A DNA stretch of 64,000 nucleotides from Rhodobacter viridis (lineage in GTDB: Bacteria > Pseudomonadota > Alphaproteobacteria > Rhodobacterales > Rhodobacteraceae), in contig NZ_QJTK01000007.1 of the NCBI RefSeq assembly GCF_003217355.1, positions 1 through 64,000 on the forward strand. The letters run 5' to 3'. The position numbers and the translations under genes are program-made. Below are positions 15,195 to 63,932 of the stretch, in pieces. The notes under the pieces are model-generated. The model worked only from the letters and a program-made list of their open reading frames with translations. It did no database searches and had not been told where the DNA came from. The first letter of the stretch is position 1. Each line of letters starts with the position of its first letter.

Positions 15195-16937
15195 TCAGGC
15201 GCGCGCGGCATCATCAAGGCGCAATTGCACCTTGGATCGGCCGCCCCAGCTGTCGAGTTCGAGCTTGCCTGCCAGATGGAACCGCCCCGCTCCGCCCGCC
15301 GAAAGCGCGGGTCCAAGCGGGCCGTCGAAGGCGCCAAAGGCAATCGCGTCGAGCTTTGCGCCAAGCCCGTCGCCGAAGCTCAGACGCAGGTGGTTTTCAC
15401 CGATCCGGCGGCTGTTCAGAATCGCCATCGCGGCAAAGGCAAAGCGCGGCGAGGGGGCCGCCTGACCATAAGGACCGGCGCGGTCGAGATCCTCCATCAG
15501 TGCGGGCGTCGCCGCGCCGGGCATCAGAAGGCCGTCGAGCCGCAGATCGGCCGGGCCGCCCGCGCCTGCGCCCTGCCGGGCGAGCAACTCGGCGAGCCGG
15601 GCCATCGCAGCGTCAAGCTGATCCTCGGCCACGGTCAGACCTGCCGCCATCCGGTGCCCGCCGCCCTTGATCAGCAATCCCTCGGCCGCGACCCGTTGCA
15701 CCGCCGCGCCCAGATCGACGCCCGCGACCGAGCGGGCCGAGCCCTTGCCGATGCCGCCCTCGAGCCCGATCACCACGGCGGGGCGGTTCGTCGCCTCCTT
15801 GAGCCGCGCGGCAACGATGCCGACGACGCCCGGATGCCAGCCCTCGCCCGCGGCCCAGACGAGCGGGCCATCAAGCCCCCGGGCCTCGGCCTGCGCCAGC
15901 GCGGCGTCGCGGACCCGGTTCTCGATCTCGCGGCGCTCGGTGTTCAGCCGGTCGAGCCGCTCGGCCAGAGCCGCGGCCTCGGTCGGGTTGTCGGTGGACA
16001 AGAGCCGCGCCCCCAGATCGGCGGCGCCGATCCGGCCCCCCGCATTGACCCGCGGCCCGAGCAGAAAGCCCAGATGATAGGCGGTCGGCGCCTTGTCGAG
16101 CCGCGCCACGTCGGACAGCGCCATCAGCCCCGGCCGCTCGCGCCGGGCCATGACCTTCAGGCCCTGCCGCACCAGCGCCCGGTTGACGCCCAGGAGCGGC
16201 GCCACATCGGCCACGGTGGCCAGCGCGACGAGATCGAGCATGGCCATCAGATCGGGGCCCTTGACGCCCTCGGCCCGCAGCTGCCGGTTCGCCTCCACGA
16301 GCATCAGGAACACCACCGAGGCGGCACAAAGATGACCCAGATCGCCCGGCTCGTCCTGCCGGTTCGGGTTCACGCAGGCCGTGGCGGGGGGCAGGGTCTC
16401 GCCGCCCAGATGGTGGTCGAGAATGACCACATCGGCAGGCGCGGCGGCCGCGACGGGCTCGTGGCTGAGCGTGCCGCAATCGACGCAGACGATCAGCCCG
16501 TGCTCGCGCCCGAGCGCCTGCATCGCGGGGACGTTCGGACCATAGCCCTCGTCGATGCGGTCGGGAATGTAGAGCGTGGGCACATGGTTGAAGGCGCGCA
16601 GCCAGCAGATCAGCAGCGCCGCCGAAGAGCCGCCATCGACGTCATAATCGGCAAAGATCGCGATCTTTTCGCGGCTCTTCACCGCCCGCAAAAACCGCAC
16701 GGCGGCCTTTTCCATGTCCTTCAGCCGATGCGGATCGGGCAGCAGATCGCGCAGGGTCGGTTCCAGAAACCCCGCCGCCTCCTCGGGTGTCACGCCGCGC
16801 GCCACCAGAACGCGGGCCAAAGGCAAGGGCAGGCGGGTCGCTTGTGCCATCGCCTCGGCCAGACGATCGGCCTCGAGGCTGGGGCCGACCCAGCGCCGCC
16901 CGGTCAGCGACGTATCGACATCGAGAAAGCTGTTCAT
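15195..16937 (-). CDS. recJ: RecJ, single-stranded-DNA-specific 5'-3' exonuclease
   Basis: The 580-residue protein has the DHH-family phosphoesterase motifs: FADYDVDG (97-102), VDCG (152-154) and LDHH (173-176). The DHHA1 domain follows with the GGGHRMAAG-type motif (LLIKGGGHRMAAGLT), and a C-terminal OB-fold region. Length and order agree with RecJ, which resects DNA in RecF recombination and mismatch repair. The ATG at 16937 is followed by MNSFLDV and the usual 'RRWVGP' start. No other repair gene is adjacent. Confidence 0.95.
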   Translation of the reverse strand: MNSFLDVDTSLTGRRWVGPSLEADRLAEAMAQATRLPLPLARVLVARGVTPEEAAGFLEPTLRDLLPDPHRLKDMEKAAVRFLRAVKSREKIAIFADYDVDGGSSAALLICWLRAFNHVPTLYIPDRIDEGYGPNVPAMQALGREHGLIVCVDCGTLSHEPVAAAAPADVVILDHHLGGETLPPATACVNPNRQDEPGDLGHLCAASVVFLMLVEANRQLRAEGVKGPDLMAMLDLVALATVADVAPLLGVNRALVRQGLKVMARRERPGLMALSDVARLDKAPTAYHLGFLLGPRVNAGGRIGAADLGARLLSTDNPTEAAALAERLDRLNTERREIENRVRDAALAQAEARGLDGPLVWAAGEGWHPGVVGIVAARLKEATNRPAVVIGLEGGIGKGSARSVAGVDLGAAVQRVAAEGLLIKGGGHRMAAGLTVAEDQLDAAMARLAELLARQGAGAGGPADLRLDGLLMPGAATPALMEDLDRAGPYGQAAPSPRFAFAAMAILNSRRIGENHLRLSFGDGLGAKLDAIAFGAFDGPLGPALSAGGAGRFHLAGKLELDSWGGRSKVQLRLDDAARA

Positions 16938-37102: not shown

Positions 37103-38467
37103 TCAGGCGCGCAGGTCTTCGCAGTCTTTCAGCGCCGCGCTGGCGGGATCAAGCGCCAGCACTGCCCGGGCTTCGGCCAAAAGCCGGTCCGCTTCGGCCT
37201 GATCGCCGCGGATCAGCGCCACCCGCGCAAGGCCGGTCAGGCTTTCCGCCCAGCGGTAATCGGCGTGATCGCGACGACCACAGGCCAGCGCGGTCTCGAA
37301 GGCCTGTTGCGCCCGCGCGGCGCCGTCGCTTGCGGGCAGCGCCCGGGCCAGCGCCAGCGCCGTCAGGCCGAGATTGTGCTGCAACCGCGCCCGCTCGGCC
37401 GGGGTCTCAAGCCCGGCCAGAACCGCATCCGCGGCCTCGAACTCCTCGATCGCGGTCCTCAGCGGCGTCGCATCGCCGGTCACCTCGGCCAGATGCCGCC
37501 GGGCGAGCGCCAGCGTCGCCACCGCCGAGGCCCAGTCGGCCGGGTGGTCTTCCTGCTTCAGCGCTTCAAGAACGGCGTCCAGATCCGCGATTGCGGTTTC
37601 GATCAGCGCGGCATCGCCCGTCATCCGGCCCAAAGCCGCGCGCACATTCGCCCGTGCCGCGGTGCTGTTTGCCCATTCGAGCGGCGAGCCCTGGGAATTG
37701 AACACCTCAAGCACCGCCGAATAGGCCTTGATCGCCTTTTTCAGCATCGCGGCATCGCGGTGGCGCAGGCCGATCAGCTCGTGGATGCCGCCCAGATTGT
37801 GCTGCGAAAAGGCCCAGTTTTCCGGCTGTTTCGTCCGCGCGACGGCCTTGGCGGCGGCGGTGAAGAGCTCGGCCGCAAGGTCGAGGTGTTTGCGCCCGGG
37901 GCGGAACTGGCCGATGATCTGATGGCAATTGCCAAGGCTCGTCTGCGCCTGACCGAGTTCGCCGCCCTTGGCGCGCTTGTAAAGCGCCTTGGCGAGTTCC
38001 AGCGCCAAGAGCATGTCGAAGGGATCGCCCGCCTTCTCCCCGGCTGCCAGCTTTTCATAAAGCAGATCGACGGTCGCCCGGAACACCCCGCCCGCGGGGG
38101 CGGCGGCCTTGAGCCGCTCGATCTGCCGTGCGGCGGCCTGTTCGGGGGCGTTGCAGATCCGGTCCTGTCGCGCTGCGGCGGCCAAAAGCGGCTCCTCCGT
38201 CGCGCCGTCCAGAAGGGCGGCGGCCGCGGCACGGTCTCCGGCGGCGTTCAGCGCCGCAACCTGACGCAGGGTTTCGTTTTCACCCGCCAGCGCGGCGGTT
38301 TCGGCAGCCGCCGCCAGCGCCGCGCGCAGCCCGTTCAGCGCCAGTTCCGGGTCGGGAAACCGCCCGGTGGCAAACTCCTGCGCGAGCGCCTGCACCAGCG
38401 GCAGGGGGGCGTCGGTCGCGCCCAGACGGCGGATCAGATCGGCGGTGACAGGGTCTTCGGCGGGCAT
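37103..38467 (-). CDS. Tetratricopeptide-repeat-like protein
   Basis: This 454-residue alpha-helical protein is rich in alanine. Degenerate TPR-type helix pairs run from about residue 150 to the end (for example GNCHQIIGQFRPGRKHLDLAAEL, NLGGIHELIGLRHRDAAM, NLGLTALALARALPAS). There is no signal peptide or catalytic domain. Such scaffolds mediate protein-protein contact. No partner is evident from the neighbours. Orientation matches the following glyoxalase gene, but they are 99 bases apart. Confidence 0.65.
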   Translation of the reverse strand: MPAEDPVTADLIRRLGATDAPLPLVQALAQEFATGRFPDPELALNGLRAALAAAAETAALAGENETLRQVAALNAAGDRAAAAALLDGATEEPLLAAAARQDRICNAPEQAAARQIERLKAAAPAGGVFRATVDLLYEKLAAGEKAGDPFDMLLALELAKALYKRAKGGELGQAQTSLGNCHQIIGQFRPGRKHLDLAAELFTAAAKAVARTKQPENWAFSQHNLGGIHELIGLRHRDAAMLKKAIKAYSAVLEVFNSQGSPLEWANSTAARANVRAALGRMTGDAALIETAIADLDAVLEALKQEDHPADWASAVATLALARRHLAEVTGDATPLRTAIEEFEAADAVLAGLETPAERARLQHNLGLTALALARALPASDGAARAQQAFETALACGRRDHADYRWAESLTGLARVALIRGDQAEADRLLAEARAVLALDPASAALKDCEDLRA

Positions 38468-53469: not shown

Positions 53470-54831
53470 TCAGAACGCCCCTTTCTCTTCGCGAAACGAC
53501 TCCGCCCGGTAACGGCTGATCTGCACATCCTCGGCCCAGTAGTCCGGGGCAAAGCCCGCCTTGCGCTTGAGCGCGCGCAGGAACTCGCCCGGATCGGGCA
53601 GGGCGTCCCAGACCATCGGCAGAAAGGTGCCGCGCTGGCCGCGACTGCTGAAGATCAGCCCGTCACGGCCGGGGGTGATCGCGGCCAAAGCCTCGGCCTC
53701 GCTGCCAAAGGTCAGCGGCGCGGCGCGGGTCAGCACGGCGATCTTGATCTGCAGCCCGGGCAGGTCCGCGGCCGTGACCGGGGCGAAACGCGGGTCACTC
53801 AGCCCGGCCTTTTGCGCATTCTCGATCACATCCTCCATCAGCGGCCGATGCGCGAGGAGCGAGCCGATGCAGCCGCGCAACCGCCCCGCCTGCGTCAGCG
53901 TGACGAAGGATGCGCCCAGCCCCTGCAGCGCGGGCGCGAAAGAGGCCGCCGCAATCGCGGGCGGCTTGCCGCTGCGCAGCCGGATTTCCAGCGCCTGCCG
54001 CGCGCTGCGCAGAAGCGTCGCGCGGTACGGCGCGGCAAGGATGTCGTCGTCGAGCCCGTAAAAGGCCCAGGCGCCGTAGCCGACGACGCGGGAAAGATCG
54101 CCGCTGACTGCGCCCGAATTGCCCATGCCGAGTCGCAGCGCCCGGCTGGCCTGCCCGGCCTCTGCGGTCAGCCAGCCCGCGACGGCTCTCGCCCCGCAGG
54201 CATGGGCGCCGGTCAGCCCGCCCGCCTCGCCCCGCTCGATCAGCGCGGCGGTGCTGGCGTCTTTCGTACGCGCCTCGGGATCGGTCAGGAAATGGCTGAG
54301 ATCGGAGGAGAGCACGACCAGAACCCCCGGCCCGGCCAGCGCATCAAGGATCACCGCCACAGTCTCGGTCGCGACGGCGCCGATCACCAGCGGCGCGATG
54401 GGTACGCCCGGAAAGCGGCGGGCCAGAAAGGGCAGCTGCGTCTCGATCCCGTGTTCACTGTCGTGCGCGGCGTCGTCCTCATGCGCAAGCCCTTCTGCGG
54501 CCAGCCTTTCCAGCCGCTCGCGATTGATCGGCAACAGCCCGAGCCCGGTGTCGAAAGCCGCATCCGACGGATAGGCCACCCCCGCGAAGGCGTGCCGGTG
54601 CGAGGGCGAGAGCACGACCACAAGTTCGGGCCGCACGGGCATCGCCGCAAGCGCCATCCCGGTGAAGCGGCCGGAATAGGCATAGCCCGCATGGGCCGAA
54701 ATCACCGCGCGCGGCAGGGCCCCGGTCAGCGGCGGACAGGCGGCCAGCCCCTGATCCACCGCGGCCGCGAGCGCGTCAGGGTCTGCCGGAAAGAACGAGC
54801 CCGCAAAGCGCAGCGATCTGATCTTCGTCAT
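53470..54831 (-). CDS. MEMO-AMMECR1 fusion protein (AmmeMemoRadiSam system)
   Basis: The 453-residue protein joins two domains. Residues 1-260 are a MEMO domain with conserved His47 (HAGYAYSG), His78 (SPSHRHAF), His127 (EHGIETQLPFL), His180 (SSDLSHF) and Cys212 (HACG), the dioxygenase-like metal-site pattern. Residues 265-453 are an AMMECR1 domain with its signature LRGCIGS (Cys321). The fusion is the partner of a divergent radical SAM gene 59 bases away. The three-component set is known only as the AmmeMemoRadiSam system; no reaction is established. The ATG at 54831 is preferred; the open frame upstream is basic and unsupported. Confidence 0.92.
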   Translation of the reverse strand: MTKIRSLRFAGSFFPADPDALAAAVDQGLAACPPLTGALPRAVISAHAGYAYSGRFTGMALAAMPVRPELVVVLSPSHRHAFAGVAYPSDAAFDTGLGLLPINRERLERLAAEGLAHEDDAAHDSEHGIETQLPFLARRFPGVPIAPLVIGAVATETVAVILDALAGPGVLVVLSSDLSHFLTDPEARTKDASTAALIERGEAGGLTGAHACGARAVAGWLTAEAGQASRALRLGMGNSGAVSGDLSRVVGYGAWAFYGLDDDILAAPYRATLLRSARQALEIRLRSGKPPAIAAASFAPALQGLGASFVTLTQAGRLRGCIGSLLAHRPLMEDVIENAQKAGLSDPRFAPVTAADLPGLQIKIAVLTRAAPLTFGSEAEALAAITPGRDGLIFSSRGQRGTFLPMVWDALPDPGEFLRALKRKAGFAPDYWAEDVQISRYRAESFREEKGAF

Positions 54832-54890
54832 CTTCCCCTCCGCCTTTTCGCGAAGTTTGACTTGCGGGCGCGGATTTGGCCAGATGGGGC

Positions 54891-55967
54891 ATGAGCCGCG
54901 CCGCCGCCACCGCCCGCTATTGGCGCGCCGATCCCGACCGGGACCGGCTGATCTGCGAATTGTGCCCACGCTTTTGCGCCCTTGGGCCGGATCAGCGCGG
55001 GATGTGTTTCGTGCGCAAGCGCGCGGGCGGCCAGATCGTTCTCGACACCTGGGACCGGTCGTCGGGCTTCTGTCTCGATCCGATCGAAAAGAAGCCGCTC
55101 AACCATTTCCTGCCCGGCACCTCGGTCCTGTCGTTCGGCACGGCGGGCTGCAACCTCGCCTGCAAGTTTTGCCAAAACCACGACATCTCGAAAAGCCGCG
55201 AGACGGCGCGGCTGTCGCAGGTGGCGACGGCCGAGAGCATCGCGAATGCCGCGCGCACTGCCGGGGCGGCGTCGATCGCCTTCACCTACAACGACCCGGT
55301 GATCTTTGCCGAATATGCGCTGGAGGTGGCCGAGGCCGCCCATGCGAAGGGCGTGAAGACGGTCGCGGTGACGGCGGGCTACATCTGCCCCGAACCGCGG
55401 GCTGAGTTCTTTGCCGGGATGGATGCGGCGAATATCGATCTGAAGGCCTTCTCGGAGGACTTCTACTGGAAGCTCACCGGCGCGCATCTGGCCCCGGTGC
55501 TGGAGACGATCGAATATGCGGTGAAGGAAACCCGCTGCTGGGTGGAGCTGACGACGCTGCTGATCCCCGGGCAGAATGACTCCGAGGCCGAGATCGCGTC
55601 GCTGTCCGACTGGGTGCTCGACCGGCTCGGCCCCGACGTGCCGCTGCATTTTTCCGCCTTCCACCCGGCCTTCCGCATGCCCGATCTGCCGCCGACCCCG
55701 CCCGAGACGTTGTTTCGGGCGCGTGACAGGGCGAGGGCCGCGGGGCTGCATCACGTCTATGTCGGCAACGTCCATGCGAAACCGGCGCAATCGAGCTATT
55801 GTGCGGGCTGCGGTGCGCTGGTGATCGGGCGGGACTGGTATCGGCTTTCGGACTGGCATCTGACCGCGGACGGACATTGCCAAAGCTGCGGTGCGGCTTT
55901 CGCCGGGGTGATCGACGGCCCGCCCGGGGACTGGGGACCGAAGCGGCAGCCGGTGCGGATCGTGTGA
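54891..55967 (+). CDS. AmmeMemoRadiSam system radical SAM enzyme
   Basis: This 358-residue radical SAM enzyme is related to the PflA-like activases. The [4Fe-4S] ligands are Cys87, Cys91 and Cys94 (GCNLACKFCQNHDIS). An N-terminal cysteine block (Cys22, Cys25, Cys29, Cys39; CELCPRFC) and a C-terminal zinc-ribbon-like pair (YCAGCG, HCQSCG) suggest further metal sites. It diverges from the MEMO-AMMECR1 gene. The ATG at 54891 is used; an in-frame TTG at 54876 is also open. Its substrate, presumably a protein or small molecule, is unknown. Confidence 0.92.
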   Translation: MSRAAATARYWRADPDRDRLICELCPRFCALGPDQRGMCFVRKRAGGQIVLDTWDRSSGFCLDPIEKKPLNHFLPGTSVLSFGTAGCNLACKFCQNHDISKSRETARLSQVATAESIANAARTAGAASIAFTYNDPVIFAEYALEVAEAAHAKGVKTVAVTAGYICPEPRAEFFAGMDAANIDLKAFSEDFYWKLTGAHLAPVLETIEYAVKETRCWVELTTLLIPGQNDSEAEIASLSDWVLDRLGPDVPLHFSAFHPAFRMPDLPPTPPETLFRARDRARAAGLHHVYVGNVHAKPAQSSYCAGCGALVIGRDWYRLSDWHLTADGHCQSCGAAFAGVIDGPPGDWGPKRQPVRIV

Positions 55968-55988: not shown

Positions 55989-56008
55989 AAAGGCCGAGGG
56001 CCTTTGGG
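55989..56008 (+). terminator. Weak stem-loop after the radical SAM gene
   Basis: AAAGGCC (55989-55995), loop GAG, GGCCTTT (55999-56005), perfect 7-bp stem with T residues at its 3' side, 22 bases after the stop. Confidence 0.45.
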
Positions 56009-56071
56009 CCCCCGGCGGTCAGGGGGCAGATGTCGCGCATGACCGAGGCAATGGCCTCGGCCAATCACGCC

Positions 56072-56893
56072 CTATCGAAGCTTCTTGCGCATCCGCCCCC
56101 CGGGCAGCGTTTCCGGCGCGGGGGCGCTTGGGTCGTGCATCGCCCGGACCCGCGTCTCGGCCGAGCGGATCAGATCGGGAATCAGATCCGCCTCGGGCAG
56201 GTTCTTCCAGTATTTCTGTGGCATATGCGATTTCATCGCCTTCACCATCAGCCGCGCCGGGTTGAAGATCGAGGCGAAATAGACTCGCCACAGCTCCTCG
56301 GCCGCGTCCTTCGGCGGCGGCTGGCGGGCCTCGGTTTCCTCGATCCGCATCTCGCCCGCCTCGCAACGCGCGGTGAGCGTGGGGGTGGCGATGAGCCAGT
56401 CCATGTCGCCGAACCGGCGCGCGAAAAACGGCGCGGCGGCTTCAAGAACGGGATGGTCCGGCTCGAACCAGGCGGCAAAGGCGCGCCGATTGGCCCCGGG
56501 GGGCGACACCTCGCGAAAGCGCACGAAGCCATGCATCTTGTGGATTTCGCGCCCGACCGCCTTTTGCTGATCGAGAAGCCGTCGCATCAGCGGGTCCGAC
56601 CGGTCTCCCCAGCGGACCTCCCGCTTTGACAGCCGCAGCACCAGCGCATGGGCGCGCGAAAACCGCTCGGGGTCGGAATGCAACAGCGCCATCTCGATTC
56701 CGTCCACCGCCTCGAGCGAAAGCATCAGCGGCGTCGCGACACCGGGCGCCGGGGCTGCGGTTGCGAACAGATCGGGGGCGGCCGCGCCCACCGACCAGAT
56801 CACCGCCTGCGGATCGATACCCGCGGCGGCGAGCTTGCGCACCTGCTGCCGCCAGGCGGCCACAGTGCCGATGCGGGGCAGGGTGATCTGCAT
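56072..56893 (-). CDS. DUF4130-domain, putative DNA-metabolism protein (TIGR03915 type)
   Basis: This 273-residue protein has the DUF4130 region from about 85 on (VLRLSKREVRWGDRSDPLMRRL, KMHGFVRFREVS, AAWFEPDHPVLEAAAPFFARRF). It is of the type always encoded with a radical SAM protein and sometimes fused to a UdgX-like uracil-DNA-binding domain. No such fusion is present here. The ATG at 56893 overlaps the stop of the upstream radical SAM gene (TGATG), so the two are translationally coupled. Role inferred from association: DNA repair or modification. Confidence 0.85.
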   Translation of the reverse strand: MQITLPRIGTVAAWRQQVRKLAAAGIDPQAVIWSVGAAAPDLFATAAPAPGVATPLMLSLEAVDGIEMALLHSDPERFSRAHALVLRLSKREVRWGDRSDPLMRRLLDQQKAVGREIHKMHGFVRFREVSPPGANRRAFAAWFEPDHPVLEAAAPFFARRFGDMDWLIATPTLTARCEAGEMRIEETEARQPPPKDAAEELWRVYFASIFNPARLMVKAMKSHMPQKYWKNLPEADLIPDLIRSAETRVRAMHDPSAPAPETLPGGRMRKKLR

Positions 56894-58122
56894 CAAAAGA
56901 GGCTCAGCTGTTCCGGTGCCGGGGCGAAGCGCGCGCGCAGGTTCGCGTCATCGGGCAGGGCGCGGGGCGACCAGCCGGGCAGGGTGATGAAGGGCTCGGC
57001 ATGTTTCAGGACGCAGCCGATGGCGAGCAGGTCTTCGTAGCGCAGGGTGCGGTGACGCCGCGCCTTCAGGATGCGCTCGACACTGCGCGGCCCGATGCCG
57101 GGGATGCGCAACAACATCTCTCGGGGCGCGCGGTTCACATCGACCGGAAAGAGCGCCCGATGCGCCAAGGCCCAGGCCAGTTTCGGGTCGATCTGCAGAT
57201 CGAGCATGCCGGTCGGCGGGGCAATCTCGGTCGCATCAAACCCGTAGTTCCGCATCAGCCAATCGGCCTGATAAAGCCGGTGTTCGCGCACCAGAGGCGG
57301 CTGGATCAAGGGCAGCATCCGCGACGCATCGGGGATCGGCGAGAACGCCGAGTAATAGACCCGGCGCAGCGCGAAGCGATTGTAAAGATGCGAGGATTTC
57401 CGCAGGATCTCGCCATCCGTCGCGGGATCGGCGCCGACGATCATCTGCGTCGATTGCCCGGCGGGGGCAAAGCGCGGCGCCCGCGTGCCGCGCGCGGTGC
57501 GATCCTTCGCAGCCTCGCCGCGCGCCTTCACCTCGGCCATCGCGCCGTGGATCGTCTGCACCGATTTCTCCGGCGCGAGCTGCGTCAGCGCGGTTTCCGT
57601 CGGCAGTTCGACATTGATCGACAGCCGGTCGGCCCATTTTCCCGCCTCGGCGATCAGCTCGGGTGCGGCATCGGGGATGGTCTTCAGATGGATATAGCCG
57701 CGGAAATGCTCGCGCTCGCGCAGGGTGCGGGCGACGCGGACCATTTCCGACATCGTGTCATCGGGCGAGCGGATGATGCCCGAGGACAGGAACAGCCCCT
57801 CGATATAGTTGCGGCGGTAGAATTCAAGCGTCAGGCTGACGACCTCTTCGACGCTGAACCGCGCCCGTTCGACCCGGCTCGAGACCCGGTTGATGCAATA
57901 GGCGCAGTCGTAGATGCAGAAATTCGTCAGCAGCACTTTCAGCAGCGAGATGCAGCGGCCATCGGGCGCCCAGGCGTGGCAGATGCCCGCGCCGGTGGTC
58001 GAGCCGATCCCCTTGCCATCGCGCGAGCCGCGCCGTTCGCCGCCCGACGACGCGCAGGAGGCGTCATATTTCGCGGCGTCGGCCAGAATCGACAGTTTCT
58101 CGGGCAGGGTGCGTTGAACCAT
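56893..58122 (-). CDS. Putative DNA modification/repair radical SAM protein with HhH motif and clamp-binding tail
   Basis: This 409-residue radical SAM protein has cluster ligands Cys69, Cys73 and Cys76 (NFCIYDCAYCINR). The rest of the barrel follows, then a helix-hairpin-helix DNA-binding motif (LRIPGIGPRSVERILKAR, about 345-362). Its last five residues are QLSLF (405-409), which matches the bacterial beta sliding clamp binding motif. An SOS box lies two bases before its ATG. The first gene of a two-gene unit with a DUF4130 protein. Substrate unknown. Confidence 0.88.
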   Translation of the reverse strand: MVQRTLPEKLSILADAAKYDASCASSGGERRGSRDGKGIGSTTGAGICHAWAPDGRCISLLKVLLTNFCIYDCAYCINRVSSRVERARFSVEEVVSLTLEFYRRNYIEGLFLSSGIIRSPDDTMSEMVRVARTLREREHFRGYIHLKTIPDAAPELIAEAGKWADRLSINVELPTETALTQLAPEKSVQTIHGAMAEVKARGEAAKDRTARGTRAPRFAPAGQSTQMIVGADPATDGEILRKSSHLYNRFALRRVYYSAFSPIPDASRMLPLIQPPLVREHRLYQADWLMRNYGFDATEIAPPTGMLDLQIDPKLAWALAHRALFPVDVNRAPREMLLRIPGIGPRSVERILKARRHRTLRYEDLLAIGCVLKHAEPFITLPGWSPRALPDDANLRARFAPAPEQLSLF

Positions 58123-58124
58123 GT

Positions 58125-58139
58125 GTTCACACTATGTTC
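58125..58139. promoter_or_regulatory. LexA (SOS) box, GTTC-N7-GTTC
   Basis: GTTC (58125-58128), seven bases ACACTAT, GTTC (58136-58139): an exact match to the direct-repeat LexA box of Rhodobacter and other alphaproteobacteria. It ends 2 bases from the start codon of the radical SAM gene, so LexA would block its expression until DNA damage. Confidence 0.85.
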
Positions 58140-58158
58140 ACGTTCGCCCGAAATCAAG

Positions 58159-58752
58159 TCAGGTCATCCGGGCCAGATCCGCGATGTTGCGCGCCCCCAT
58201 CTTGGCCAGCACGCGCGAGCGATGCACCTCGACCGTGCGCATGGCGATACCGAGCCGGTCGGCGATCTGCTTGTTCATCAGCCCTTCCAGCATCAGCGCC
58301 ATCACCTCGGCCTCGCGCGCGGAAAGGCTCGCCCGCCGCGCCGCCACAGCCTCGCGGGCCTGGGCCTCGGCCAGACGGCCCTCATGCGCCGCGATCGCGG
58401 CCAGCGCGATATCGACGATATGATTGTCGTTGAAGGGTTTTTCGACGAAATCGAAGGCCCCGGATTTCAGCGACTGCACGGCCAGCGGCACATCGGCATG
58501 GCCAGTCAGAAAGATCACCGGCGGCACCAGCCCTTCGGGGCGGGCCTGCAACGCATCCAGAAGCTGTGGCCCCGACATCCCCTCCATCCGCACATCGAGA
58601 ATCAGACAGCCGCAATCGGCCAGCGGCCATTCCGCCAGCAGATCCTCGCCCGAGGCCCAGGTCCGGGTCGCGATCCCGCGCGAGGCAAAGAGAAACCCCA
58701 GACTGTCGCGCAGGCTTTCCTCGTCATCGACGATGTGGACGGTGAAACTCAT
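58159..58752 (-). CDS. dctR: DctR, response regulator for C4-dicarboxylate transport
   Basis: This 197-residue regulator of the FixJ type has an N-terminal receiver with acidic Asp10/Asp11, phospho-acceptor Asp53 (LILDVRMEGMSG) and Lys105. The C-terminal LuxR/GerE helix-turn-helix follows (about 142-190; SAREAEVMALMLEGLMNKQIA). In R. capsulatus DctR activates dctPQM in response to DctS. Its ATG overlaps the dctS stop by four bases. Confidence 0.96.
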   Translation of the reverse strand: MSFTVHIVDDEESLRDSLGFLFASRGIATRTWASGEDLLAEWPLADCGCLILDVRMEGMSGPQLLDALQARPEGLVPPVIFLTGHADVPLAVQSLKSGAFDFVEKPFNDNHIVDIALAAIAAHEGRLAEAQAREAVAARRASLSAREAEVMALMLEGLMNKQIADRLGIAMRTVEVHRSRVLAKMGARNIADLARMT

Positions 58753-60719
58753 GCCGGGGCCCCCTCCTGCGGGACGGGCAGGGTGACGGTGAAGATGGTG
58801 CCGCCGCCCGCGCGGGGGCCGTGCGACAGGCTGCCGTGATGCAGCTCGAGGATCGAGCGGCAGATGTTCAGCCCCATCCCCATGCCCTCGGATTTGGTCG
58901 AGGTGAAGGGGTCGAACAGGCTCGCGGCCACGGCGTCGGAAATGCCCGGGCCGCGGTCCATCACCTCGATCGTGACGCTGGCCCCGGCGCGGGCGACGCG
59001 CACAGTCAGGTCGTAGCCGGTGCGGGGGCCTTCGGCCATCGCCTCGATGCCGTTGCGGATCAGATTGACCAGAACCTGCTCGATCAGGATGCGGTCGGCC
59101 TGCACCTCGGGCAGGCGGCCTTCGATCAGCGAGGCCAGTTTCACCCGATGCTCGCGCGCGGCGGGGGCGGTGATCGACAGCGCCTCCGCCAGCACCTCGG
59201 AGAGATCGAGGGGCGCGAGCTGCGGCGTGCGTTTCTTCACGAAATCCTGCACCCGGCGGATGACCAGCCCGGCGCGCCGCGCCTGCGCGCCCATCTTCTC
59301 AAAGGCTTGCCGCAGCATCCCCAGGTTTGGCTCGGGCTGATCGAACAGGTTCAGCCCCCCGGCGGCATAAGAGGCGATGGCGGCCAGCGGCTGATTGAGT
59401 TCATGCGCCAGCGTCGAGGCCATCTCGCCCAAGGTCACCAGCCGCCCGGTGCGGGCGAGGCTTTCGTCCTGCGCGCGGGCCAGCCGTGCCGCCTGTTTCG
59501 CCTGCGTGATGTCGATCACCGAGCCCATCCAGCCGCGATGCTTGCCGCCCGCGTCGATCAGCGGCGCCTCATAGACCTGCACCTCGATTTCCGAGCCATC
59601 CGAGCGGCGGAACCGGGTCTCGAAGGCCTGCGGCACCGGCTGACCTTCGATCAGCTGGCGCTGCCGGGCGAGGGTTTCTTCCAGAATGTCGGGCGCCCAA
59701 TAGGGCATCGGCTGGGCGCGACCGACCAGCTCCTCGGCGCTCAGGCCCACCAGTTTGCAAAAGGCGCCATTCACGTAAAGGATGCGGCCCGAAAGATCCT
59801 TGGCCCGCATCCCCACGGTCAGGCTTTCCTCCATCGCGCGGCGAAAGGCCATCTCGGCGCGCAGACGCTCTTCGGCGCTGCGGCGGCGGACGGCGTTGCG
59901 ATGCAGCACGGCAAGCGCCAGCACCGCAAAGACCGAGAGCGCCCCGATCGCCGCCAGCAGCGCCGTGCTGCCAAAGGCATCGGGTGCGTCATAGGCCATG
60001 ATTTCGAGCGTCGTTCCGGCGAGCGGCGGATCGAAGCTGATGCCGTGGCGCGGCGCGGCTTCGGCCACCGCGCGACGGGCACGTTCGGCCAGAACGCCCG
60101 AGGTGTCGGAGATCCGCACCCCATATTGCTCGGCGATCCACCACGGCAGATGACGTTCGAGCATCATCGGCAGCGACACCGTGGCGACCACCACGCCGCC
60201 CGAAGACGAGACCCGTTCGGCCATCGTCACCAGACCGTTGCGCACTGGCCCATAGACCGGCCGCGTGGGCAGGGCACCCGAGGCAAGCACCTGTTTCGCC
60301 AAGGCTTCCTCTGCCTGCCCCGCCCCCTCCGGCACGGCGGCGACTAGGTGGCCCGTCGCATCATACCAACGCAGGCCCAGTGTCTCGGGATTGGCGGTCA
60401 GATGCAGCCGGGCGCGGGCGGAAAGTGCCTCCTGCGGCGTCCCGGCACTGGCATCGAGCGCCAGCCGCACCAGCAGATCCTCGTCCACCGACATCTGAAA
60501 GCGCAGGGTTTGTTCGACCCAAAGCGCATCGGTGGCCAGTTTCGCCCGGGCACGTGCGGCATCGGATTGCGCCACGACATAGAGAAGCGCCCCCACCAGC
60601 ATCACCAGCGCGACGATGGCAACAAGCGGGATCAGCGCCAGCACATCCGGCTTGCGCGCGCCAAGCAGGCCCGGAACGGTCCAGACCTCGGCGCCCGCAG
60701 GGGCAGAACCGCTGTGCAA
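58749..60719 (-). CDS. dctS: DctS, sensor histidine kinase for C4-dicarboxylates
   Basis: The frame gives 656 residues with two membrane helices (about 28-50 and 252-272). A periplasmic sensor domain lies between them, then a PAS domain (about 295-405), HisKA with His439 (TLAHELNQPLAAI), and an HATPase domain (NLIRNGIEAM, DRGPGISD, GMGMGLNI). The frame starts with TTG at 60719; no in-frame ATG lies between the promoter region and this codon, so the start is uncertain. It pairs with DctR. Confidence 0.93.
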   Translation of the reverse strand: MHSGSAPAGAEVWTVPGLLGARKPDVLALIPLVAIVALVMLVGALLYVVAQSDAARARAKLATDALWVEQTLRFQMSVDEDLLVRLALDASAGTPQEALSARARLHLTANPETLGLRWYDATGHLVAAVPEGAGQAEEALAKQVLASGALPTRPVYGPVRNGLVTMAERVSSSGGVVVATVSLPMMLERHLPWWIAEQYGVRISDTSGVLAERARRAVAEAAPRHGISFDPPLAGTTLEIMAYDAPDAFGSTALLAAIGALSVFAVLALAVLHRNAVRRRSAEERLRAEMAFRRAMEESLTVGMRAKDLSGRILYVNGAFCKLVGLSAEELVGRAQPMPYWAPDILEETLARQRQLIEGQPVPQAFETRFRRSDGSEIEVQVYEAPLIDAGGKHRGWMGSVIDITQAKQAARLARAQDESLARTGRLVTLGEMASTLAHELNQPLAAIASYAAGGLNLFDQPEPNLGMLRQAFEKMGAQARRAGLVIRRVQDFVKKRTPQLAPLDLSEVLAEALSITAPAAREHRVKLASLIEGRLPEVQADRILIEQVLVNLIRNGIEAMAEGPRTGYDLTVRVARAGASVTIEVMDRGPGISDAVAASLFDPFTSTKSEGMGMGLNICRSILELHHGSLSHGPRAGGGTIFTVTLPVPQEGAPA

Positions 60720-60772: not shown

Positions 60773-60815
60773 ATTGCGGAAAGCCGCAATAGCGTTGCGC
60801 AAGGATCTTGCGCAA
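60773..60815. promoter_or_regulatory. Two inverted repeats in the dctS-dctP intergenic region
   Basis: ATTGCGG-AAAG-CCGCAAT (60773-60790) is a perfect 7-bp dyad. TTGCGCAAG-GAT-CTTGCGCAA (60795-60815) is a perfect 9-bp dyad. They lie 47-89 bases before the dctP ATG, between divergent regulator and transporter genes. They are the most likely DctR binding sites or part of the dctP promoter. Both share TTGCG half-sites. Confidence 0.6.
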
Positions 60816-60861
60816 GAAGGCCGCGGCCCGCCGTGGAGAGCGGGAACCGGAGGAGAATCAC

Positions 60862-61863
60862 ATGTTGACCCGTCGCATCCTTGGCGCCCTTGTCGGCGCC
60901 ACCGCCCTCAGCCTTGCGCTGTCCGTCCCGGCCCTTGCCGAGCCGATCGTGATCAAGTTCAGCCATGTCGTCGCCCCCGACACGCCCAAGGGCAAGGGCG
61001 CCGCGAAGTTCGAGGAACTGGCCGAGAAATACACCAACGGCGCGGTGGACGTGGAGGTTTACCCCAACAGCCAGCTCTACAAGGACAAGGAAGAACTTGA
61101 AGCGCTGCAACTCGGGGCCGTGCAGATGCTCGCCCCGTCGCTGGCGAAATTCGGGCCCCTTGGCGTGCAGGATTTCGAGGTCTTCGATCTGCCCTACATC
61201 TTCAAGGACTACGAAGCGCTGCACAAGGTGACCCAGGGCGAAGCGGGCAAGATGCTGCTGTCGAAACTGGAAGCCAAGGGCATCACCGGGCTGGCCTTCT
61301 GGGACAACGGTTTCAAGATCATGTCGGCGAACAGCCCGCTCAACACCCCCGATGATTTTCTGGGTCTGAAGATGCGCATCCAGTCCTCGAAAGTGCTCGA
61401 GGCCGAGATGAACGCGCTTGGCGCCGTGCCGCAGGTGATGGCTTTCAGCGAAGTCTATCAGGCGCTGCAGACGGGCGTTGTCGACGGGACCGAAAACCCG
61501 CCCTCGAACATGTTCACGCAGAAGATGAACGAGGTGCAGAAGCACGCCACCGTCTCGAACCACGGATACCTTGGCTATGCGGTGATCGTGAACAAGCAGT
61601 TCTGGGACGGGCTGCCGGCCGATGTGCGCACGGGGCTTGAAAAGGCGATGGCGGAATCGACCGATTACGCGAACGGCATCGCCCGCGAGGAAAACGAAAA
61701 GGCTCTGGCCGCGATGAAGGCCGCGGGCACGACCGAGTTCCACGAGCTGACCGCCGAAGAGCGCGCAGCCTGGGAGGAAGCTCTGGCCCCGGTGGCCGAC
61801 GAGATGGCAGACCGGATCGGCGCCGAGACCATCGCCGCGGTGAAAGCCGCCACCGCCGAGTAA
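60862..61863 (+). CDS. dctP: DctP, periplasmic C4-dicarboxylate-binding protein
   Basis: This 333-residue TRAP-T solute receptor has a signal peptide cut after ALA26 (SVPALA-EPIV). The conserved Arg of the TRAP family is in the GLKMRIQSSKV segment and binds a substrate carboxylate; VVDGTENPPSN follows. It binds malate, succinate and fumarate. GGAGGAGAATCAC precedes the ATG at 60862. First gene of dctPQM, regulated by DctS/DctR. Confidence 0.97.
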   Translation: MLTRRILGALVGATALSLALSVPALAEPIVIKFSHVVAPDTPKGKGAAKFEELAEKYTNGAVDVEVYPNSQLYKDKEELEALQLGAVQMLAPSLAKFGPLGVQDFEVFDLPYIFKDYEALHKVTQGEAGKMLLSKLEAKGITGLAFWDNGFKIMSANSPLNTPDDFLGLKMRIQSSKVLEAEMNALGAVPQVMAFSEVYQALQTGVVDGTENPPSNMFTQKMNEVQKHATVSNHGYLGYAVIVNKQFWDGLPADVRTGLEKAMAESTDYANGIAREENEKALAAMKAAGTTEFHELTAEERAAWEEALAPVADEMADRIGAETIAAVKAATAE

Positions 61864-61870
61864 GACCCTC

Positions 61871-61899
61871 GGGCGGCTCCGATCGGGGCCGCCCTTTTT
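61871..61899 (+). terminator. Stem-loop with T-run between dctP and dctQ
   Basis: GGGCGGCTCC (61871-61880), loop GATC, GGGGCCGCCC (61885-61894), one T-G pair, followed by TTTTT. It begins 8 bases after the dctP stop inside the operon. It probably causes partial termination, so that DctP is made in excess over the membrane subunits, or stabilises the dctP mRNA 3' end. Confidence 0.75.
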
Positions 61900-61924
61900 C
61901 CTTTCCTGCCAGACGGGGGCCGCC

Positions 61925-62608
61925 ATGCTGCGCATCCTCGACCGGGCCGAAGAGGTGCTGATCGCCGCGCTCATCGCGACGGCGACGGTGCTGATCTTTG
62001 TCTCGGTCACCCATCGTTTCACCCTTGGCTTCGTCGCCGATGGCGTTGGCTTCTTTCGCAGCCACGGCATGGCCGGGGCCGCTGCCACGACGAAAAGCGT
62101 TTACATGACGCTGCGCGGCATCAACCTCGTCTGGGCGCAGGAGCTGTGCATCATCCTTTTCGTCTGGATGGCGAAGTTCGGCGCGGCTTACGGCGTGCGC
62201 ACCGGCATCCATGTCGGCATCGACGTGCTGATCAACCGCCTTGCCGCGCCGCAACGCCGTTTCTTCATCCTGCTCGGCCTTGGGGCAGGGGCGCTCTTCA
62301 CCGGCATCATCGCGACGCTCGGCGCGAATTTCGTGCATCACATGTACAATGCCTCCTCGACCTCGCCCGATCTCGAGCTGCCGATGTGGCTCGTCTATCT
62401 GGCGATCCCGATGGGCTCGTCGCTGATGTGCTTCCGCTTCCTGCAGGTGGCGTATTCCTTTGCCCGCACCGGCGAGCTGCCGCACCATGACCATGGCCAT
62501 GTCGATGGTGTCGACACCGAGGACGAGGGCATCGACGCCGAGGGTGACGTGATCCTGCACTCGCCGCTGACGCCGCGCGACCTTGTCGAAAAACCGAAGG
62601 ACAACTGA
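61925..62608 (+). CDS. dctQ: DctQ, small membrane subunit of the TRAP transporter
   Basis: This 227-residue protein has four membrane helices and the DctQ family layout (LDRAEEVLIAALIATATVL, WAQELCIILFVWMAKFGAAYGVR, GIHVGIDVLI). A charged histidine/aspartate-rich C-terminal tail (HHDHGHVDGVD) follows. It links the receptor DctP to the channel DctM. The stop precedes the dctM ATG by 1 base. Confidence 0.96.
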   Translation: MLRILDRAEEVLIAALIATATVLIFVSVTHRFTLGFVADGVGFFRSHGMAGAAATTKSVYMTLRGINLVWAQELCIILFVWMAKFGAAYGVRTGIHVGIDVLINRLAAPQRRFFILLGLGAGALFTGIIATLGANFVHHMYNASSTSPDLELPMWLVYLAIPMGSSLMCFRFLQVAYSFARTGELPHHDHGHVDGVDTEDEGIDAEGDVILHSPLTPRDLVEKPKDN

Positions 62609-62609
62609 C

Positions 62610-63932
62610 ATGAGCGCCCTTATCATCTTTGGTCTGCTCATCGCCCTGATGCTCACCGGCATGCCGATTTCGATCTCGCTTGGCCTGACGGTGCTGACGT
62701 TCCTCTTCACCATGACCGAGGTGCCGATCGACACGGTGGCGCTGAAGCTGTTCACCGGCATCGAGAAATTCGAGATCATGGCGATCCCGTTCTTCATCCT
62801 TGCGGGGAACTTCCTGACCCATGGCGGGGTCGCCAAGCGGATGATCAACTTCGCCACCGCGATGGTGGGCCACTGGCACGGCGGGCTGGGGCTCGCGGGC
62901 GTCATCGCCTGCGCGCTCTTCGCCGCTGTCTCGGGCTCGTCGCCCGCCACCGTCGTCGCCATCGGCTCGGTGATCCTGCCCGCGATGGTCAATCAGGGCT
63001 TTCCGAAGCAATTCGGCGCGGGGGTGATCACCACCTCGGGCGCGCTGGGCATCCTCATTCCGCCCTCGATCGTGATGGTGATGTATGCCGTTGCCACCTC
63101 GGGGATGGTGGTGACGGGGCCGAATGGCGAAGCCGTCTCCTCGGCCTCGGTGGGGCAGCTTTTCATGGCGGGCGTCGTGCCCGGTCTGATGCTCGCCGGC
63201 TTCCTCGCCTTCACCACCTGGAACCGGGCGCGCAAGTTCGGCTATCCGCGGCTTGAAAAGGCGAGCCTCGGCCAGCGCTTCGCCGCCTTTCGCGAGGCCT
63301 TCTGGGGTCTGATGCTGATCGTTGTCGTCATCGGCGGGATCTATGCGGGCATCTTCACGCCGACCGAGGCCGCCGCGATGAGCGCCGTCTATGCCTTCGT
63401 GATCTCGGTCTTCGTCTACAAGGACCTGACCCTGCGCGACGTGCCGCGGGTGTTGCTCTCGTCCGCCAACATGTCGGCGATGCTGCTTTACATCATCACC
63501 AACGCGGTGCTGTTCAGCTTCCTGATGGCGCATGAGGGCATCCCGCAGGCGCTGGGCGAGTGGATGGTCAACGCGGGCCTCTCGTGGTGGATGTTCCTGA
63601 TCATCGTGAACGTGCTTCTGCTCGCGGCGGGCAACTTCATGGAGCCCTCCTCGATCGTGCTGATCATGGCGCCGATCCTGTTTCCGGTCGCGGTGCGGCT
63701 CGGCATCGACCCGGTGCATTTCGGCATCATGATCGTGGTGAACATGGAAGTCGGCATGTGCCACCCGCCGGTGGGGCTGAACCTGTATGTCGCCTCGGGC
63801 ATCACGAAAATGGGCATCACCGAACTGACCGTGGCGGTCTGGCCCTGGCTGCTGACGATGCTCGTCTTCCTCGTGCTGGTGACCTATGTCCCCACGATCA
63901 GCCTCTTCCTGCCGCATCTGCTTGGCATGTAA
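62610..63932 (+). CDS. dctM: DctM, large membrane subunit of the TRAP transporter
   Basis: This 440-residue transporter of the ion-transporter superfamily has about 12 membrane helices and the signatures GMPISISLG, FAAVSGSSPATVVAIGSVILPAM (hairpin) and GILIPPSIVMVMYAVA. It forms the Na+-driven dicarboxylate pathway. The ATG at 62610 follows dctQ by 1 base. The frame upstream of it belongs to the end of dctQ. Confidence 0.97.
   Translation: MSALIIFGLLIALMLTGMPISISLGLTVLTFLFTMTEVPIDTVALKLFTGIEKFEIMAIPFFILAGNFLTHGGVAKRMINFATAMVGHWHGGLGLAGVIACALFAAVSGSSPATVVAIGSVILPAMVNQGFPKQFGAGVITTSGALGILIPPSIVMVMYAVATSGMVVTGPNGEAVSSASVGQLFMAGVVPGLMLAGFLAFTTWNRARKFGYPRLEKASLGQRFAAFREAFWGLMLIVVVIGGIYAGIFTPTEAAAMSAVYAFVISVFVYKDLTLRDVPRVLLSSANMSAMLLYIITNAVLFSFLMAHEGIPQALGEWMVNAGLSWWMFLIIVNVLLLAAGNFMEPSSIVLIMAPILFPVAVRLGIDPVHFGIMIVVNMEVGMCHPPVGLNLYVASGITKMGITELTVAVWPWLLTMLVFLVLVTYVPTISLFLPHLLGM

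Follow-up and report, generated by a model that had tools for sequence, protein, structure and literature searches.

A LexA-type operator and a conserved clamp-type tail in a radical SAM-DUF4130 gene pair of Rhodobacter viridis

Which task could bring a radical SAM (S-adenosylmethionine) protein and a DUF4130 protein together under an operator of the SOS response? The question is raised by two overlapping genes in the first 64,000 nucleotides (nt) of contig NZ_QJTK01000007.1 of Rhodobacter viridis (assembly GCF_003217355.1); this whole stretch is called the window below. The best explanation, which we favor with moderate confidence, is a two-gene SOS operon for an enzyme that docks on the sliding clamp and processes DNA lesions by radical chemistry. 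The argument is built from sequence, i.e. from family membership, the operator, the C-terminal tail, the conservation of cysteines, the link to the partner gene, and the absence of the uracil-DNA binding protein UdgX. The two genes are:

56893-58122, minus strand: open reading frame of the radical SAM protein (TIGR03916 family), 409 amino acids, C-terminus APAPEQLSLF
56072-56893, minus strand: open reading frame of the DUF4130 protein (TIGR03915 family), 273 amino acids, no UdgX domain

The radical SAM gene comes first and the DUF4130 gene second. They share a single base, within TGATG, in which the stop codon TGA of the former (56895-56893) runs into the ATG of the latter at 56893. The radical SAM protein scores 582.3 bits against TIGR03916 (rSAM_link_UDG; curated cut-off 343.5) and 34.5 bits against the Pfam family Radical_SAM. 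The DUF4130 protein reaches 182 bits with TIGR03915 (cut-off 112.25) and 128.1 bits with the Pfam family DUF4130 (PF13566; cut-off 27). For comparison, we used 80 relatives from a collection of genome contigs, classified as alphaproteobacteria by their record titles, 26 further alphaproteobacterial loci (L145-L170) and 29 loci from other proteobacteria (L171-L199). Nearly all compared sequences are from Pseudomonadota; L103 is a metagenome bin.

The putative operator and the promoter lie directly upstream of the radical SAM gene:

58125-58139, minus strand: LexA operator GAACATAGTGTGAAC, reading GTTC-N7-GTTC on the plus strand, wrapped around a -10-like element, at a position kept in relatives
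58129-58157, minus strand: promoter-like TTGATT-17-TAGTGT, 0.01 expected by chance, in agreement with base frequencies in relatives

GTTC-N7-GTTC has been named as the alphaproteobacterial LexA motif (PMC8565304). The box, GTTCACACTATGTTC at 58125-58139, ends 2 nt before the ATG of the radical SAM gene (58122). The mere presence of the pattern says little, because its numbers are at chance level: the window has two copies versus 1.38 expected, which is not significant as a count, and the genome has 86 versus 97 for a reversed-pattern control. The other copy in the window is at 38333-38347 on the plus strand. The position is what is conserved. Within the 125 nt tested around the start, 77 of the 80 alphaproteobacterial relatives have the box, versus 0.26 expected from the rest of the loci and two of 80 for the reversed control; the remaining three (L064, L068, and L103) have boxes with one mismatch, as read by eye. 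All 26 loci of the further alphaproteobacterial set have it as well. The pattern is found in none of the 29 non-alphaproteobacterial relatives; instead, 19 of them carry upstream CTGT-N8-ACAG, the E. coli-type LexA box (0.11 expected), and 24 the looser CTG-N10-CAG (1.66 expected). In the host genome itself, two GTTC-N7-GTTC boxes are located 29-54 nt past the end of the match to lexA, and a further one lies some 106 nt past that to recA. Since the boxes change with the host group in this way, and the host has its own type near the lexA and recA matches, the control of the pair appears to follow the LexA type of the host. In its operator, the pair has the features of a LexA regulon member, i.e. 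a host-type operator at a predicted promoter and at a position conserved in relatives.

An alignment anchored on the box, comprising 74 of the 80 relatives, is compatible with the promoter. The commonest bases 18 to 16 nt before the box are TTG (51-65% for each base), and in the spacer, six of the seven positions have T-A-T-A-A-T as their commonest letters (43-92% for each). The operator thus appears to enclose the -10 element. The transcript is then predicted to start at or next to the ATG and to be leaderless, and this would account for the distance of 2 nt between box and start codon.

The second conserved feature is the end of the protein:

56896-56910, minus strand: QLSLF, a pentapeptide of the clamp-binding type that fits the published consensus, at the C-terminus of the radical SAM protein

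Bacterial clamp binders are described with QL(S/D)LF at the C-terminus (PMC9690074), and PMC13254535 gives a revised consensus, Q-phi-x-[LM]-[FL] or an alternative with six residues. The published consensus, which is not post hoc, fits the tails of 65 of the 80 alphaproteobacterial relatives, 18 of the 26 further loci, 9 of the 29 non-alphaproteobacterial relatives and all eight genus members, including the window. The tails that miss it come close, for instance QMSLF, QLQLI, QMALW, and QLGFGF. A wider pattern, which also allows M, G, I, F, and W but was drawn up from tails already inspected, fits all 80, 26, 29, and eight tails of these sets and those of four of eight more distant records. 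The respective values for control frames, which are stop-to-stop frames rather than curated genes, are 5 of 1711 (published consensus) and 14 of 1711 (wider pattern). An intermediate pattern, likewise post hoc, was found in 80/80, 20/26, and 21/29 tails versus 0 of 1109 control frames. Elsewhere in the same 80 proteins, the published form has six matches in 34,209 residues. The last nine residues of the predicted structure have a mean pLDDT (predicted local distance difference test) of 55, as for a free tail, so that in sequence and model the protein has a clamp-binder motif, Q-phi-x-[LM]-[FL], in a predicted free tail. Clamp binding is thereby suggested, and the conserved tail is newly described for this family: among the matches listed, no report of a clamp motif in TIGR03916 proteins was found in the open-access literature searched.

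The first-pass annotation of this DNA had described a coupled radical SAM-DUF4130 pair with an exact LexA box two bases from the start codon and a C-terminal QLSLF. Its coordinates and sequence features are correct, and the observation as a whole is confirmed, on firmer ground than the letters by themselves could offer. It had also proposed looking for the box and the tail in relatives, and SOS control, gene coupling, and tail withstand this check: both box and tail are kept there, the tail in 65 of 80 by the published consensus and in 80 of 80 by the post hoc pattern.

The radical SAM protein has the cluster motif CxxxCxxC, as CIYDCAYC at residues 69-76, together with the radical SAM barrel, and thus belongs to the superfamily. 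Three further cysteines, 23, 48, and 57, precede the motif and are near-invariant in an alignment of 145 rows; these are not independent sequences, L144 and L174 being the same gene. This suggests an auxiliary iron-sulfur (Fe-S) cluster on these three cysteines. The C-terminal half has a further element:

Residues about 325-360 of the radical SAM protein (minus strand): helix-hairpin-helix (HhH)-like region, from a sequence pattern and profile matches

P341, G342, and G344 of the HhH pattern are invariant in an alignment of 67 of the 80 relatives plus the window with <90% identity, from which L052 was excluded by hand because its frame start was out of register. The HhH claimed earlier therefore stands as a sequence pattern and falls as a Pfam-level match, the HHH_3 score being a weak 20.6 bits versus a gathering score of 27. 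A profile search retrieved ComEA and RuvA chains at weak E values of 0.03-0.16.

What the first annotation did not contain is the link of the pair to UdgX in relatives and the fact that this genus does without it. UdgX removes uracil from DNA and attaches itself covalently to the abasic site so formed (PMC10359453). In 74 of the 80 alphaproteobacterial relatives, the DUF4130 protein continues into a domain with GE[QA]PG, the motif A of UdgX, and 63 of these 74 fused partners also have the R-loop KRR.H or a close form; the typical motifs of these fusions are GEQPG and KRR[ILMV]H. In plasmid records, the fused domain is annotated by NCBI as UdgX family uracil-DNA binding protein. An alignment of 73 of the 80 partners plus the window had <85% mutual identity. 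Motif A was also found in 23 of the 26 partners in the further alphaproteobacterial set and in 10 of the 29 in the non-alphaproteobacterial set. In contrast, the 273-residue partner in the window has neither GEQPG nor KRR.H, and none of the eight DUF4130 partners of the genus has UdgX motifs. The window genome has no match to UdgX (TIGR03914) above the cut-off of 189.95; its best and sole match, of 124.6 bits, is a family 4-like uracil-DNA glycosylase (UDG) encoded elsewhere, with GEAPG and without an R-loop. A search for a UdgX remnant in the window gave nothing better than an E value of 0.26, and that match was far from the pair. DHH phosphoesterases (RecJ/Cdc45) were considered for DUF4130 with a view to a possible shared fold; their DHH motif is absent from the window DUF4130 translation. 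Of the 27 pair-bearing genomes among 149 sampled from the host's family, 26 have UdgX over the cut-off, and the exception is the window genome. Further UdgX-free pairs of the family lie outside this sample (L040, L046, L053, L150, and L153).

A tree of 142 radical SAM proteins, calculated with FastTree only, groups seven members of the window genus in a clade with a support of 100, nested in a clade of 13 rows (support 99), of which the other six are UdgX-fused. Between the fused and the solitary state, 15 changes were counted, and at least ten are forced by well-supported branches; the count may be slightly high, because L160 and L197 were scored as UdgX-free despite partner frames of 475 and 451 amino acids. 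These two frames lack motif A and possibly contain a diverged or broken UdgX domain. The ratios of nonsynonymous to synonymous substitutions (dN/dS) of the core genes, 0.04-0.12 and 0.15-0.22 for six genus pairs each, indicate purifying selection on the core without UdgX. Because the state changes repeatedly while the core persists, UdgX is a detachable module; the constant part is the radical SAM-DUF4130 core, most members of which have also retained the box and the tail.

The frequent fusion, the co-occurrence in 26 of 27 genomes, and the covalent trapping of abasic sites by UdgX (PMC10359453) could also mean that the pair resolves abasic sites or UdgX adducts; the radical enzyme would then act on deoxyribose or on the protein-DNA bond. 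In R. viridis, the sites would be left by the ordinary family 4-like UDG, which is kept elsewhere in the genome. At least ten changes of UdgX presence with a persisting core, and a motif A in only 10 of the 29 non-alphaproteobacterial partners, argue that the core works without UdgX, and we regard this role as unlikely.

The SOS control of this family and its predicted role in repair or mutagenesis are already published (PMC3765255, PMC8565304, PMC3828012), a point likewise missing from the first-pass annotation. The relevant passages describe COG1573-COG4277 as a predicted SOS-regulated excision-repair operon in Bacteroidetes, with reference to papers on Verrucomicrobia and Caulobacter (PMC8565304), and place CAC3343-CAC3344 in the predicted LexA regulon of Clostridium acetobutylicum (PMC3828012). 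In other papers, a gene of the same name is up-regulated by desiccation in Acinetobacter (PMC13130816), the gene is merely listed (PMC9611098), and LexA-linked "radical SAM" genes, perhaps of the family of the window gene, are reported (PMC9380542, PMC7739468). The window pair shares with the published TIGR03916-TIGR03915 pair (COG4277 plus DUF4130), predicted to form an SOS operon with a UDG, both families above the cut-offs, the gene order, and the LexA control. It differs in that its DUF4130 protein has no UdgX domain, which is the rule in the family sample, and in its clamp-type tail, of which the passages on the published pair make no mention. The present analysis adds the conservation of a clamp-type tail, an operator embedded in the predicted promoter, three additional cysteines, and a genus that has the pair without UdgX. 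The radical SAM gene is over the cut-off in 84 of 398 proteobacterial genomes sampled, about a fifth, yet among the matches listed, no description of the reaction of this radical SAM family was found in the open-access literature searched.

Mutagenic polymerases are SOS-controlled and dock on the clamp, and the pair shares the operator and, by prediction, the docking. It could thus modify a base under SOS conditions and thereby change coding or aid bypass, in line with the passage that calls DUF4130 a "predicted mutagenesis-related enzyme" that "might modify thymines" (PMC3765255). Seven neighbouring proteins were scanned and include no polymerase or mutasome protein, and such mutagenesis or editing appears improbable to us.

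Among the matches listed, many of the nearest solved folds are enzymes for lipoyl carriers, cofactors, nucleotides, or RNA. LipA, HydE, and BioB are 12-18% identical to the window enzyme and have other substrates; unlike them, the window enzyme has an HhH-like C-terminus and a clamp-type tail. Although these folds would suit an SOS-induced modifier of RNA, nucleotides, or protein that rides on the clamp, the HhH-like region, the tail, and the DNA glycosylase fused in most alphaproteobacterial relatives make a non-DNA substrate very improbable.

A radical SAM enzyme that acts on DNA lesions does exist: the spore photoproduct lyase SplB, which is SOS-regulated in several species (PMC8565304) and resembles the proposed role of the window enzyme. 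SplB was not among the six NCBIfam families found at E 0.1, in a library whose holding of an SplB model was left unchecked, nor among the best 50 fold matches listed, which excludes nothing. SplB uses a cysteine located after its cluster motif; in the window-family alignment, none of the columns with conservation in 97% of the rows corresponds to this residue.

Given that the clamp-type tail is conserved and that the LexA box matches the host type, a replication-coupled role in DNA repair is likely. For the two-gene SOS operon, the following scheme is proposed. LexA on the -10 element would block the probably leaderless transcript, and DNA damage would relieve the block. The radical SAM subunit would dock on the beta clamp via QLSLF and read DNA with its HhH-like region. 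The 5'-deoxyadenosyl radical would then alter the lesion, probably with the help of another Fe-S cluster, held by cysteines 23, 48, and 57, while DUF4130 would act as the constant partner and present or bind the DNA. The UdgX fused to DUF4130 in most alphaproteobacterial relatives may add the capture of uracil or abasic sites; since the window genus does without UdgX, the core chemistry should not need it. Clamp binding, the second cluster, DNA as the substrate, and the chemistry are the predicted parts of this scheme.

Several observations weigh against it. A strict consensus scan found no promoter upstream of the pair, and 5 of the 29 non-alphaproteobacterial relatives lack both types of LexA box. 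The tails of 15/80, 8/26, and 20/29 relatives are outside the strict published consensus, the wider pattern being post hoc, and four of the eight more distant records have no clamp-type tail (L209 among them is perhaps a broken frame). The HhH scores fall short of the Pfam gathering scores, and substrate, activity, and clamp binding are all predictions. The pair is also dispensable: the radical SAM gene is present in 27 of the 149 family genomes (26 over the cut-off, plus G147 with the gene in two pieces), all 27 of which also have DUF4130 over the cut-off, and within the genus, DUF4130 occurs in 8 of 18 genomes. In genome G117, a DUF4130-like frame (53.3 bits; L200, G117:C4:516000-521000) stays below the cut-off and has no radical SAM partner in that stretch. 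The radical DNA repair at the clamp that had been proposed earlier is thus supported in part, namely in the SOS box, the gene coupling, and the tail kept in relatives.

Plasmid carriage may help to explain the patchy spread, as 158 plasmid records contain the radical SAM gene (58 from Phaeobacter, 15 from Paracoccus, and 11 from Azospirillum). One record named as an Acinetobacter phage (L204, CAKLQH020000003.1) has the pair beside glyS/glyQ and looks chromosomal; its enzyme ends in QLSLGF.

On one side, the neighbours scanned comprise a two-component pair and a DctP/DctM TRAP transporter, and on the other, an AmmeMemoRadiSam system; none has an apparent functional link to the pair. Further features of the window are:

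55993-56016, minus strand: hairpin like an intrinsic terminator, after the pair; weak (one found, 1.4 expected by shuffles)
53470-54969, minus strand: fused AmmeMemoRadiSam B-A protein (TIGR04336 plus TIGR04335)
54876-55967, plus strand: AmmeMemoRadiSam radical SAM enzyme (TIGR04337, 569.5 bits), a second radical SAM system adjoining the pair; as listed, divergent from the preceding frame and overlapping it at the starts
58159-60719, minus strand, and 60808-63932, plus strand: two-component regulators beside the DctP/DctM TRAP transporter; the LexA box lies inside the 36-nt gap that follows the gene of the response regulator
15210-16823, minus strand: recJ

A bolder version, that an SOS-induced, clamp-tethered enzyme with a second, N-terminal Fe-S cluster on three cysteines attacks damaged DNA by a novel radical reaction and that UdgX is a swappable module marking the site, is tentative and in our estimate rather doubtful. 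If it were true, UdgX would gain a physiological partner. The link to UdgX is of interest in view of the physiological role of this protein, which is described as largely unknown (PMC10359453). The UdgX-free version in the window genus offers a simple form in which to seek the core reaction, and the predicted docking tag, together with a frequent UdgX partner that is absent here, makes the chemistry of the pair testable.
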